Assembly: GCF_900104745.1 (NCBI RefSeq)
Contig: NZ_LT629732.1
Span: forward strand, 5,691,981 to 5,755,980
DNA from: Actinopolymorpha singaporensis
Lineage (GTDB): Bacteria; Actinomycetota; Actinomycetes; Propionibacteriales; Actinopolymorphaceae
Reading direction: 5' to 3'
Length of the DNA: 64,000 nt
Position 1 is the first letter of the stretch. Each line of letters opens with the position of its first letter. Positions 18,347-22,908 of the stretch are shown piece by piece. Under the pieces are notes generated by a model, which saw only the letters and a list, made by a program, of their open reading frames with translations, was not told where the DNA came from and ran no database searches. The translations under genes and the position numbers were made by a program.

Positions 18347-20116
18347 TCAGGAAGCGCAGACCTCCACCAGATGGTCGACGACCTCGGCGATCGGCAGATC
18401 GATGCGTTCGCTGGTACGCCGGTCCTTGATCTCCACCTTGCCGTCCACGATCCGCCGCCCGCAGGTCACGATCGTGGGGATGCCCAGCAGGTCGGCGTCG
18501 TTGAACTTCTCCCCCGGGCTCGCCCCGCGCCGGTCGTCCAGCAGCACCCGGATGCCCCGGGCGTCCAGCTCGGCGGCGAGTCGCTCGGCGGTCTCGAACG
18601 GCGCGTCGTTCTTGCCGGTGGCGATGACGTGCACGTCGGCCGGGCTGATCTCGCGGGGCCAGATCAGGCCCTTGGCGTCGTGGTTCTTCTCCGCGATCGC
18701 GGCGACTGCCCGGCTCACCCCGATGCCGTACGACCCCATCGTCACCACGACCTGCCTGCCGTTCTCGTCCAGCACCGTGAGACCGAGCGCCTGCGCGAAC
18801 TTGCGGCCGAGCGCGAAGACGTGCCCCATCTCCATGCCCCTGGCCGAGGCCAGCGCGCTGCCGCAGCGCGGGCACGGGTCACCGTCGCGTACGTCGGCGG
18901 CATGGATGGTGCCGTCGGGGGTGAAGTCGCGGCCGGCGACGAGGTCCACCACGTGTTTGCCGGGTTCGTTGGCGCCGGTCACCCAGCGGGTGCCCGACGC
19001 GACCCGTGGGTCCACGAGGTAGCGAACCCTGGCCGGCTTGTCCGCACCCAGCGCGGCGGGTCCGATGTAGCCGCGCACCAGCTCCGGCCTGGCCGCGAAG
19101 TCCTCGTCGGTCGCCGCCTGGACGGTGGCCGGGTAGACCTGGGCCTCCAGCCGCTTCAGGTCCACCTCCCGGTCACCGGGTACGCCAACGGCAAGGAGTT
19201 CGCTGTCGCCGCCTGGTTGGACGACCTTGACGATGACGTTCTTCAGGGTGTCGGACGCCTGCCAGGGACGGTCGTCGCGACGGAGCTTCTCCCGGCCGTT
19301 CAGGAGCGCGACCAGCGACTCGATCGTCGGGGTGTCCGGCGTGTCCTCCACGTGCGCGGCGGGCAGGCCGGCGTGCGGCACCGGCTCGGTGGCGGGCACT
19401 TCCACCGCCTCGGTGTTGCTCGCGTAGTCGCAGGATGTGCAGCGGACGTAGGTGTCCTCGCCCACCTCGGTGGGGGTGAGGAACTCCTCGCTGAGCGAGC
19501 CCCCCATCGCTCCGGCCATCGCCTTGACGATCACGTGGTCGAGTCCGAGCCGGTCGAACGTACGGACGTACGCCTCACGGTGCCGGTGGTAGGAGCGCTC
19601 CAGGCCGGCGTCGTCGACGTCGAAGGAATAGGAGTCCTTCATGGAGAACTCCCGGCCCCGCAGGATGCCGGCCCGCGGACGTGGCTCGTCGCGGTACTTC
19701 CACTGGATCTGGTAGATCGACAGCGGGAGGTCCTTGTAGGAGGAGAACAGGTCCTTCACCGCAAGGGTGAACATCTCCTCGTGGGTGGGGCCGAGAAGGT
19801 AGTCGTTGCCCTTGCGGTCCTTGAGCCGGAAGATGTCGTCGCCGTAGTCGGTCCACCGGCCGGTGCGTTCGTACGGCTCGCGCGGCAGCAGCGCCGGGAA
19901 GTGGACCTCCTGGAACCCCGCGGCGTCCATCTCCTCCCGGACGATCCGCTCGACGTTGAGGTAGGTGCGCCAGCCCAGCGGCAGCCAGGAGTAGATGCCC
20001 GGTGCGACCCGCCGGATGTAGCCGGCGCGCACGAGCAACCGGTGGCTCGGCACCTCCGCGTCGGCCGGGTCCTCGCGCAGCGTGCGCAGGAACAACGTCG
20101 ACATCCGCAGGATCAC
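18347..20116 (-). CDS. proS: Prolyl-tRNA synthetase
   Basis: ProS charges tRNA-Pro. It is a class II synthetase of the long bacterial type with the YbaK-like editing insert. The N-terminus is [50 protein letters not shown]. Motif 2 is [27 protein letters not shown], the insert runs from about residue 225 to 400, and motif 3 is [20 protein letters not shown]; the anticodon domain ends the protein. The GTG at 20116 lies seven bases after GGAGGAG; the open frame to 20602 beyond it lacks homology. The 589 residues are normal for the family. Confidence 0.98.
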
Positions 20117-20248
20117 GGGGAAACTCCTCCGAGGAAGGGACGGCGGCGTCACCACCGCCGGGACCGAGGCGAGAATACCGGCTGTGCGTGACCAGGCCCC
20201 TGCTCGGCCCGAGGCGTGCCACGTCGCGAGGCGGCCCCGAGCCACAAT

Positions 20249-20523
20249 TTCTCCACAGCCAGCGGATCGGTCGCTCACCCGGATCTCCTTGTGGACAACG
20301 GGTTGGATGGCGGTCGCCATCGCTAGAGTTCGAACATGTATTCGACAACCAAGGATCTTCCCCGCGGCAGGGGCAGCGGCACCGTTGCCCGGTTGAGGGC
20401 TGCGCTCGGCATGTTCGGGGCCGGCATGGACCAGGCCCGGTCGACGCCGACCCTGAAGCCCGCACCGGCCGCGAACGACGAGGCGGCACAGGGCGACGCT
20501 CCGATCGAGGGACGTTGTCCACA
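20249..20523. promoter_or_regulatory. Cluster of three DnaA-box-like nonamers
   Basis: TTCTCCACA (20249-20257), TGTGGACAA (20290-20298, the reverse of TTGTCCACA) and TTGTCCACA (20515-20523) lie within 275 bases between proS and the EbfC-like gene. Two of them are perfect to the high-GC actinobacterial DnaA consensus. They may titrate DnaA or tie the adjacent promoters to replication state. Confidence 0.5.
20330..20345 (+). promoter_or_regulatory. LexA-type SOS box with overlapping start codon
   Basis: TCGAACATGTATTCGA matches the actinobacterial LexA consensus TCGAAC-N4-GTTCGA at 11 of 12 half-site bases. TAGAGT (20324-20329) just upstream is a -10 box, and the ATG at 20336 lies six bases after it. 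LexA binding would block a leaderless transcript. Confidence 0.7.
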
Positions 20524-20605
20524 GCTTGTCGATCACGTCCGGGTGGCGCCCGAAGTGTGGGCTAGAGTCGCTCAGCAGCGGAGATCCCGCACACCGGGGC
20601 ATTAG
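20336..20605 (+). CDS. Small leaderless ORF under an SOS box, unknown function
   Basis: An 89-residue open frame starting [20 protein letters not shown]. Its ATG lies inside the LexA-type box and directly after a TAGAGT -10 element, the same layout seen for SOS-controlled genes in Actinobacteria, which supports a real start. Codon third positions are strongly G/C through about residue 60 and become mixed after that, where the frame crosses a DnaA-like box, so the C-terminal third may not be under coding selection. No domain, signal or membrane segment is recognised. It is basic at the N-terminus. The EbfC-like gene starts 27 bases after its stop codon. Confidence 0.45.
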
Positions 20606-20631
20606 TGCGGGACGACAACGGGGAGGCGGCC

Positions 20632-21096
20632 GTGGCCGACGTCAGCGCCAACGACTTCGACCGGCTGTTCGACGACGCCATGGCGGCTCTGCGGCCGCTG
20701 GCCGGGCAGCCTGACCCCCACGCTGACAGCGCTCCCGGGGCTGAACAGGGCGCCGCCGACGGCGGCGCCGAACCCACCGGGCCGGTCCGCGGTGTCGGCG
20801 AGGCACTCGACGGCTACGTCCGCGTGACCGCCAAGCCGGGCGGAGAGCTGGAGACGGTCGAGCTCAACCCCCGCGTTCTGCGTTCGGACTCCGAGTCGAT
20901 CGCGGAGGCGTTCCGGGAGGCGGCCAACGCCGCGCTCGCCGACCTGCAGGCCAAGCTGACCAGCGCCCTGCCCGCGCTCGCCGACCAGCAGCAGATGCTC
21001 GAACGTCTGCAGGAGTTCCAGCAGCAGTCGGTGATGCAGATGCGGCGCTACCTGCAGGCCATCACCGACGTCCAGGACCGACTCGACAGGGACTGA
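20632..21096 (+). CDS. YbaB/EbfC family DNA-binding protein
   Basis: A 154-residue relative of the YbaB/EbfC nucleoid-associated proteins. The core [47 protein letters not shown] matches the family beta-sheet plus long helix, followed by a Gln-rich coiled-coil-like tail ([28 protein letters not shown]). The GTG at 20632 is preferred since GGGGAGG lies five bases before it; the open frame starts at 20605. It differs from housekeeping EbfC in sitting with WXG100 genes rather than with recR. Such EbfC-like genes often open type VII substrate cassettes in Actinobacteria; they may regulate or chaperone them. Confidence 0.85.
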
Positions 21097-21102
21097 ACGA
21101 CC

Positions 21103-21438
21103 ATGGGTGACGAGAGCGTCAGGCTCGGGTGGAACCAGCTCAACCGCGCCTCGGGAGACCTCGACAAGGCGGCCCAGGACCTCGCCCGCGAGCTGAAGGG
21201 GATCAAGGCGGAGCTTGCCGCCTTCGGTGAGCCGTGGGGCGGCGACGAGATCGGGATGCTGATCGGTGTCACCCACCAGGCCGTGTCGGAGTTCGCCTTC
21301 GACCAGCTCGACGGGATCCTCGGCGACCTGACCGCACACTCCGAGGCCGCCAACCACGTGGCGCGCACCGCGCGCGACAACGAGGAGGGCGGCGAGCAGC
21401 TGTTCAGCCAGGTCGGCAACGACGTCGAGGCGGTCTGA
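21103..21438 (+). CDS. WXG100-like type VII secretion substrate
   Basis: A 111-residue helical-hairpin protein of ESX/WXG100 type. The turn motif is seen as PWGGDE (Trp-Gly-Gly) near residue 45 between two long amphipathic helices (LNRASGDLDKAAQDLARELKGIKAELAAFG and AVSEFAFDQLDGILGDLTAHSEAANHVARTARDNEEGGEQLF). No signal peptide is present, as expected for this secretion route. It follows the EbfC-like gene by six bases and precedes the CpnT-N-type gene by six bases, so the three form one transcript. It probably pairs with the downstream product. No ESX secretion machinery is encoded in the window. Confidence 0.82.
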   Translation: MGDESVRLGWNQLNRASGDLDKAAQDLARELKGIKAELAAFGEPWGGDEIGMLIGVTHQAVSEFAFDQLDGILGDLTAHSEAANHVARTARDNEEGGEQLFSQVGNDVEAV

Positions 21439-21444
21439 GACGAC

Positions 21445-21933
21445 ATGGGGCTCCAACTTCCCGGCGAGCTGGTCACCGTGCTCGGCATGATCGGCATCAA
21501 CTGGCCGGAGGGTGACGAGGAGAAGCTGTTCGGTATGGGCCAGACCTGGGTGGACTTCGCCGGGCGGCTGAGCACGGTCGCAGGCGGCGCCGAGGGCGCG
21601 GCCACCAAGGTCTCCGAAGGGCACGAGGGCCCCACCGTCGAGGCGTTCACGAAACTGTGGGCCGAACACGGCGGCACCAGGAACCTCGACATCGCCTCCA
21701 CCGCCGGTACGGGCTTCGGTCTCGGCCTGTTCGTCTACGCCGGGGTGGTGCTGGTCCTGAAGATCAACGCCATCATCCAGCTGGTGATCCTGGCTTTCCA
21801 GATCGCCCAGGCGATCGCGACCGCGGCGGTGACGTTCGGCGGCTCGCTGCTGGAGATCCCGATCTTCCGGCAGATCACCAAGTCCATCATCGAGAACCTG
21901 ATCTGGATGGCGATCGGGCAGATCATCGGCTGA
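21445..21933 (+). CDS. CpnT-type N-terminal (WXG100-like) domain protein without toxin domain
   Basis: The sequence GLQLPGELVTVLGMIGINWPEGDEEKLFGMGQTWVDFAG is characteristic of the N-terminal helical domain of large actinobacterial type VII toxins and ADP-ribosyltransferase proteins. In those, the domain is followed by hydrophobic helices, a linker and a variable C-terminal toxin. Here the protein stops at residue 162 just after the hydrophobic segment (VLVLKINAIIQLVILAFQIAQAIATAAVTF ... IENLIWMAIGQIIG). No remaining toxin frame was found in the 33 bases before the convergent gene. It is either a trimmed remnant or a stand-alone secretion/membrane component. Confidence 0.75.
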   Translation: MGLQLPGELVTVLGMIGINWPEGDEEKLFGMGQTWVDFAGRLSTVAGGAEGAATKVSEGHEGPTVEAFTKLWAEHGGTRNLDIASTAGTGFGLGLFVYAGVVLVLKINAIIQLVILAFQIAQAIATAAVTFGGSLLEIPIFRQITKSIIENLIWMAIGQIIG

Positions 21934-21966
21934 GCGTACGGCGCACCGGCCGGCGTGGCCCGCCCG

Positions 21967-22908
21967 TCAGATCCGGATCCGCTGCCCCGGTCTGCCCACC
22001 GCCTTCTGTAGCATCAGCGTCGCCACCCCGGCGAGCACGATGGCGGCCATGTTGATGCCGAGCTGGGCCGCCGAGCCGGCAAGTTCGGCGAGGTCACCGA
22101 GCGCCAGCGCCGCGGCGAGGTTGCCGGCCGCGGGCACGGTGGTGACCGAGATGAACACGCCGACCAGCGTGCCGGACTTCGAGGCGGTGAGCGACAGCAC
22201 GCCGGCGATCCCCGCGATGAACGCCACCACGAACGACCACCGGTCCGGGGTCCAGATGAACCCTGTCAACGGTCTGGGCCGGTCGATCTGGGCGATGGTG
22301 ATCCATCCCGCGGCCCGCGCGATCAGGCACAGTACCGTGGTGCCCGCGATCGCCGCGGCGAAGCCGACGGCCAGGGTGAACAGCCCCCGGCGCAGCAGAC
22401 CCGTGCGGTGATGCACGATCCCGACCGCGATCGCGGCCAGCGCGACGAACTCCGGGCCCACCACCATCGCGCCGATCACCAGGATCGAGGAGTCGAGTAC
22501 GACCGCGATGGCGGCGAGAGTGGTGGCGAGGAAGAGGAACGACAGGAACGTCCACGAAAGCACGGCGTCGTCGGAGGTGTGCCGTACGACCTCCTCCCAG
22601 ATGACCGCGTCCGCGCCCTCGCCCGGCGCGGCGCGCTCGGCGCGTTCGGCGGCGTCGTAGACGGCGGTGTCGACCATCTCCATGGCGATCGTCCCGTCGG
22701 AGTCGAGGCCGAGGTCGCGCAGCCCACAGAGCACCCCCTCGACGGACTCCCGCGCGATGTCCGCGAACACCAGATCGCCCGGGGGCCGGATCGACGCGCC
22801 CGGCACCACCGCCAGGTTGGCGACGCCCACGCAGTCCTCGAGGAGCGCGACGACCTTCTCGGTCCGCTCCGACGGTGAGGTCACCCGCAGATGCAGCACG
22901 CCGGACAT
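21967..22908 (-). CDS. DUF389 family membrane protein
   Basis: A 313-residue integral membrane protein of the DUF389 family. Residues 1-110 form a cytosolic ferredoxin-like domain (LHLRVTSPSERTEKVVALLEDCVGVANLAVVPGASIRPPGDLVFADIARESVEGVL). The membrane part begins about residue 118 (VLSWTFLSFLFLATTLAAIAVVLDSSILVIGAMVVGPEFVALAAIAVGIVHH) and contains six or so segments. The family is widespread but functionally undefined. A 7-5-7 inverted repeat sits directly upstream of the ATG, which has no good ribosome site. It converges on the CpnT-N gene. Confidence 0.9.
   Translation of the reverse strand: MSGVLHLRVTSPSERTEKVVALLEDCVGVANLAVVPGASIRPPGDLVFADIARESVEGVLCGLRDLGLDSDGTIAMEMVDTAVYDAAERAERAAPGEGADAVIWEEVVRHTSDDAVLSWTFLSFLFLATTLAAIAVVLDSSILVIGAMVVGPEFVALAAIAVGIVHHRTGLLRRGLFTLAVGFAAAIAGTTVLCLIARAAGWITIAQIDRPRPLTGFIWTPDRWSFVVAFIAGIAGVLSLTASKSGTLVGVFISVTTVPAAGNLAAALALGDLAELAGSAAQLGINMAAIVLAGVATLMLQKAVGRPGQRIRI

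Follow-up and report, generated by a model that had tools for sequence, protein, structure and literature searches.

The 13E12 proteins of mycobacteria, which we take to be DUF222-HNH proteins, are the closest described counterparts of the locus analyzed here. M. tuberculosis 13E12 members are assigned to the LexA regulon (PMC4181829, PMC5005354), five putative HNH endonucleases appear among the RecA-dependent mitomycin C responders of the same species (PMC8151990), and the REP13E12 regions are said to 'lack defined biological function' (PMC13061034). The M. tuberculosis lexA gene is described as leaderless, its transcription beginning at the start codon (PMC2897130), and deletion-born fusions have been proposed to be a general source of new genes (PMC12803068). 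Within the literature passages searched, no description of a start codon lying inside the box was met for the 13E12 family, and we make no claim of novelty for this layout.

Here we analyze a 64,000-nucleotide stretch of the Actinopolymorpha singaporensis genome (the window, whose numbering is used throughout), in which an 89-codon frame had been proposed to be a small, leaderless, SOS-controlled gene. Our analysis indicates, with a probability of roughly 0.93, that this frame is a 5' stump left by a multicopy DUF222-HNH gene (13E12/REP13E12 type) that has lost most of its length at this locus. Sequence comparisons assign codons 1-39 to this family, identify the layout of box and start codon as family-wide, and trace the DNA downstream to former flank. 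The stump is an ordinary decayed remnant of an already known SOS-controlled repeat family.

A LexA-type box over the start codon

The frame occupies positions 20336-20605 of the forward strand (89 codons and a TAG stop at 20603-20605). Its ATG (20336-20338) lies inside a LexA-type box, TCGAACATGTATTCGA (20330-20345, forward strand), supported by pattern searches of the window and the genome, and a -10-like TAGAGT (20324-20329, forward strand) directly precedes the box, leaving six bases between TAGAGT and ATG. Aligned family copies carry TAG at the same place, and the positions of box, hexamer and frame agree with those of the initial annotation. Within the window, TCGAACATGTATTCGA occurs a single time, and a sigma-70 promoter scan of 20100-22000 returned no match.

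The box deviates by one letter from the SOS operator palindrome TCGAAC-N4-GTTCGA, which has eight exact places in the A. singaporensis genome and 90 at up to one mismatch, versus 14 for the reversed control. Five of the eight perfect palindromes adjoin lexA (L173), an IMS polymerase gene that we label imuB-like (L167), a weakly RecA-like gene that is presumably imuA'-like (L168), a radical-SAM gene (L169) and a HEPN_SAV_6107 gene (L171); the remaining three have as neighbors an ArsR-type regulator, a PMT_2 protein and a frame lacking any Pfam match. Because five of the eight perfect boxes adjoin lexA or other SOS-type genes, the sequence justifies the designation of the box as LexA-type, as first proposed. 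With the ATG inside the box, LexA bound at this site would lie over the transcription start as well as the start codon, and DNA damage would then give rise to a leaderless mRNA beginning at the ATG. LexA binding at the stump box, induction by DNA damage and leaderless transcription are thus predictions from sequence, and some residual expression of the stump may persist.

The DUF222-HNH family and its boxed start codon

Searches with the 89-aa product against 57 genomes yielded strong matches almost solely to residues 1-40 and within the same genus alone, G001, G003 and G004 each contributing several and the A. singaporensis genome itself weaker ones; in G002 and G005, of the same genus, the best match was no better than E 0.017. 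One match from outside the genus (G033, E 5.8e-6) covers residues 5-71 and lies within a 1266-aa frame. The strong matches are N-termini of frames mostly 548-819 aa long, and the shorter matching frames look broken or stop at contig ends; most of the Actinopolymorpha copies fetched measure 545-816 aa. Residues 1-39 (20336-20452, forward strand) are 77% identical to L021, a paralogue located elsewhere. At the DNA level, homology extends over 205 bp (20248-20452, forward strand), comprising these 39 codons and the 88 bp upstream, and hence the upstream region, promoter and box of the repeat unit; 20 of 34 blastn rows against family loci span exactly 20248 or 20287 to 20452, and identity in rows covering the element is 67-82%. 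The alignment of family 5' regions, which comprised 31 copies and the window, delimits the same surviving segment, so that the stump joins a family N-terminus (residues 1-39) to a 5' region (20248-20452) as found in the Actinopolymorpha copies. When 24 full-length-class family proteins were compared with the whole window (tblastn, complete run, low-complexity masking), 14 matched the stump, and these 24 queries revealed no other family-protein piece in the window at E 0.01.

The domains that define the family lie beyond the surviving segment. The long product L028 carries DUF222, from residue 53, together with a weak HNH match, and HNH is weak in relatives too (16.7 bits in L028 and 20.8 bits in L158, cut-off 21.4); the A. 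singaporensis copies tested likewise carry DUF222 and a weak HNH. Pfam searches found neither DUF222 (PF02720, E up to 1) in the 89-aa product nor the C-terminal HNH motif in the stump, and NCBIfam returned no match for the stump, L028 or L151. We have accordingly filed the stump as a remnant of the 13E12/REP13E12 family and not as a functional member. Three other assignments were set aside: an Rv0078B-like antitoxin (Pfam, 13.9 bits, cut-off 27.1, E 0.055), a role in anti-phage defence (two full-length DUF222 proteins had no PADLOC match at E 0.01) and IscB for L149 (NCBIfam, weak at 19.2 bits, cut-off 175).

The family is multicopy in A. singaporensis, where 28 match rows resolve into 17 DUF222 loci, 15 of them with a box at up to two mismatches and two without. 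When up to two mismatches are allowed, TTCGAACATGNNTTCG matches 72 sites genome-wide, versus four for the pattern read backward, and 16 of the 72 are exact. Thirteen of the exact sites precede a DUF222 match that starts 150-293 nt past the boxed ATG, ten in frame with it and three out of frame (broken copies); the other three are the window stump, a 121-aa frame (L085) and one site without such a gene. Among 33 family places fetched from matches to the 89-aa product, weaker matches being left out, the ATG lies inside TTCGNNNATGNNTTCG in 31, the exceptions being L047 and L039, the latter a full-length copy without a box. M. tuberculosis 13E12 proteins, we assume, start with M-R-S, a sequence that would be compatible with ATGCGTTCG in a box.

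A stricter pattern, TANNNTTCGAACATGNNTTCG, is present in 25 of 296 class genomes, that of A. singaporensis included, and its reversed form gave zeros among the rows listed. The TANNNTTCGAACATGNNTTCG search led to 30 loci, of which 28 frames were submitted to Pfam and two 5-aa frames were left out. Of 29 boxes fetched from other genomes of the class, 19 open a DUF222 frame (E 0.01), 18 of these above the curated cut-off; the other ten comprise two 5-aa frames, two cut by contig ends, four without a Pfam match, one HEPN_SAV_6107 and one LigD primase-polymerase. By these sequence comparisons, a start codon inside a LexA box is the DUF222-HNH family's own layout, found across the class though not universal within the family, and such boxes can therefore serve in the search for copies and remnants. 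Outside the family, HEPN_SAV_6107 genes occur at LexA-type boxes in L159 and L171, with the boxed-ATG layout in L159, and a LigD primase-polymerase frame starts at a boxed ATG in another genus (L160).

The 121-aa frame at L085 (G000:C1:1519756, 1508-1870) is LexA-boxed and weakly matches an internal stretch of DUF222 (E 1.1e-4, under the cut-off); it is probably another remnant. L087, L089 and L095 in the A. singaporensis genome and L048 and L049 in G003 look frameshifted and yet keep the box and the boxed ATG. As several frameshifted-looking copies retain a LexA-type box, broken copies appear to be common in this family.

The edges of the repeat unit can be read from the copies themselves. 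In most of them the 5' edge is marked by TTGTCCACA, altered in the window to TTCTCCACA (20249-20257, forward strand), and its conserved inverted partner in family copies, TGTGGACAA, aligns at 20290-20298 (forward strand), so that the inverted pair TTGTCCACA...TGTGGACAA lies 5' of the promoter. In 10-nt bins across the copies within L021-L053 (27 on each side), identity averaged over all pairs climbs from about 0.3 to 0.98 at the upstream TTGTCCACA edge and, immediately past the stop codon, falls from 0.77 to 0.34. The spaced pair has three exact places in the A. singaporensis genome, all at DUF222 copies. We take TTGTCCACA to be the actinomycete DnaA box. Control of the family by DnaA through this pair is at most a possibility, as the genome's own dnaA-dnaN region (L251, 1990-2900) contains no exact TTGTCCACA and few DnaA-box-like sites at one mismatch. 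It is conceivable, if doubtful, that the DUF222-HNH copies constitute an SOS-switched mobile unit running from TTGTCCACA/TGTGGACAA to the stop codon, whose loss here would have left a portable leaderless promoter driving a fused micro-ORF and reading into the adjacent type VII secretion-like cassette. If so, the fusion of a LexA box to a start codon would place repression and translation start at one site.

The syntenic locus and the missing gene

The placement originally given for the frame, between proS and a type VII substrate cassette, holds. On the left lies proS, encoding proline-tRNA ligase (18350-20116, reverse strand; NF006625, 748 bits, cut-off 558; start assigned by eye). On the right, all on the forward strand, follow a YbaB-like gene with a GTG start after GGGGAGG (20632-21096; start likewise by eye), a WXG100-like gene with a weak match (21103-21438; 17.4 bits, below the cut-off of 27.3) and a WXG100_2-like gene (21445-21933; PF25547, 49.5 bits, cut-off 27). 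The assignment of the YbaB-like gene draws on its relatives and on a PF02575 match (29.2 bits, cut-off 25.5) scored on the frame read from 20605; TIGR00103 reached 19 bits, below its cut-off of 49.45. A single TTGTCCACA, retained in G001, is found at 20515-20523, upstream of the YbaB-like gene.

We compared the locus, with proS on one side and the YbaB-like, WXG100 and DUF389 genes on the other, in relatives of the genus: G001, Actinopolymorpha pittospori (G002), Actinopolymorpha rutila (G003), G004 and A. alba (G005). At the syntenic site, G001 harbors a whole DUF222 gene of 772 aa; in A. rutila the DUF222 gene is frameshifted near codon 88, and the YbaB/WXG100 cassette has been mostly lost. 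G004 has neither the DUF222 gene nor the cassette at the site, which is occupied by other DNA, including by eye a TetR-like regulator. The cassette is present in A. alba and in A. pittospori, where the proS and YbaB matches are about 310 bp apart. The spacers of G004 and these two species showed no DUF222-family similarity or remnants (best E 0.33). In A. rutila, homology picks up again 55 bp past the stop codon of the DUF222 gene. With the cassette mostly lost in A. rutila and absent in G004, the site seems prone to deletion.

Family homology in the window stops after codon 39 (20452), and from 20510 on the window matches, at 88%, G001 DNA starting about 250 bp past the DUF222 stop. For the 57 bp in between (20453-20509), 8 of 1000 shuffles aligned as well to the G001 flank, versus 435 of 1000, or chance level, to the lost gene; this lends moderate support to an origin of the stretch in the old flank. 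Codons 40-89 (20453-20602, forward strand) thus align to G001 as former 3' flank and YbaB-like upstream region, apparently read in frame by accident. From the end of the stump and the flank alignments, about 2.37 kb is missing relative to G001.

These observations suggest a history in which an ancestor common to G001, A. rutila and the window, as judged from position, would have carried a DUF222-HNH gene between proS and the YbaB/WXG100 cassette. In the window lineage, a deletion of about 2.37 kb (relative to G001) would have removed the DNA from codon 40 to about 170 nt past the stop codon, leaving the promoter, the box and 39 codons, with a frame that runs by chance through old flank to the TAG at 20603-20605. 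Over 20248-20452, the window shows 76% identity to the positional counterpart in G001, 75% to that in A. rutila and 80% to the paralogue L021; since the paralogue is closer than the counterparts, orthology of the stump rests on position, and gene conversion or independent insertion may have occurred at this locus. One site is in this manner found in three states, as an intact, a frameshifted and a truncated DUF222-HNH gene.

Alternative readings and known systems

A regulatory effect of the deletion is an unlikely alternative. The LexA-controlled promoter would, in such a deletion-born fusion, read into the YbaB/WXG100 cassette and render it partly SOS-inducible, and the fused frame may itself be a new micro-protein. 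Since a scan of 20100-22000 for one terminator type found no terminator-like site between them, read-through from the box into the cassette would be possible; some 300 bp now separate the promoter from the YbaB-like gene, whose start follows the end of the frame by 26 bp, the box and the -10-like site are preserved, and such fusions have been put forward as a route of gene birth (PMC12803068). However, the scan covers a single terminator type, the stump codons are drifting, and the YbaB-like gene retains a TAGAGT (20563-20568, forward strand) that is likely its own -10 and that aligns with TACAGT in G001.

A genuine small SOS protein, leaderless and LexA-controlled, with a product of 89 or about 60 aa and a function of its own, has very little probability left. 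The intact box and -10-like site agree with it, as does GC3, which is high up to codon 58 (0.85 in codons 1-39 and 0.84 in 40-58) and drops to 0.58 in codons 59-89, in line with the fading of the coding signal near residue 60 that the initial annotation had pointed out. The homology, however, breaks earlier, after codon 39, and the fading follows from the composition of codons 40-89, which are old flank and YbaB-like upstream region and align with the G001 DNA beyond the DUF222 stop across several gaps whose lengths are not divisible by 3. Conservation over the first 60 codons, and homologous small frames with the same box, had been the expectation; conservation extends over codons 1-39 and no further, as the N-terminus of a long protein that is whole in G001 and frameshifted in A. 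rutila, and the box is kept in relatives, but the frames behind it are mostly long. In a constraint test of 28 sequences, the stump departed most, differing at 5 of the 20 positions with a conservation of 90% or more in the family, versus 0-3 in the 27 others, these being small numbers; L043 and L045-L047 were omitted from the test, their best tblastn match not beginning at residue 1, and L044 and L053 from its reference set. Such departures are expected if the stump is no longer used, and its protein, as inferred from sequence, probably has no function and is drifting. What endures of the original proposal is the box, the -10-like site and a putative SOS-controlled leaderless layout that recurs across the family; the independent small gene does not. 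Chance, in the form of a random ATG inside a LexA-like 16-mer, is negligible, for although 7 of 100 window shuffles contain a match at up to three mismatches, exact boxes recur genome-wide on DUF222 starts and the 205-bp homology around the box already refutes it.

Reading the frame as the stump of a DUF222-HNH gene removes a false 'small SOS gene' and accounts for its origin. Like the Mycobacterium 13E12/REP13E12 family, the family described here is multicopy, combines DUF222 with HNH and carries a LexA-type box at its promoter; unlike it, the window keeps the first 39 codons alone, without DUF222 or HNH. As in the leaderless, LexA-controlled lexA of M. tuberculosis, the start codon would coincide with the transcription start, here deduced from the -10-to-ATG distance alone. 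Finally, as in the deletion-born fusion frames of PMC12803068, a deletion has joined the start of a frame to other downstream DNA; whereas two ORFs are joined in that model, the 3' part here is intergenic DNA, so that the locus, with an intact ancestor-like gene in G001 and a joining deletion in the window, belongs among such fusions in a wide sense, its 3' part being non-coding.
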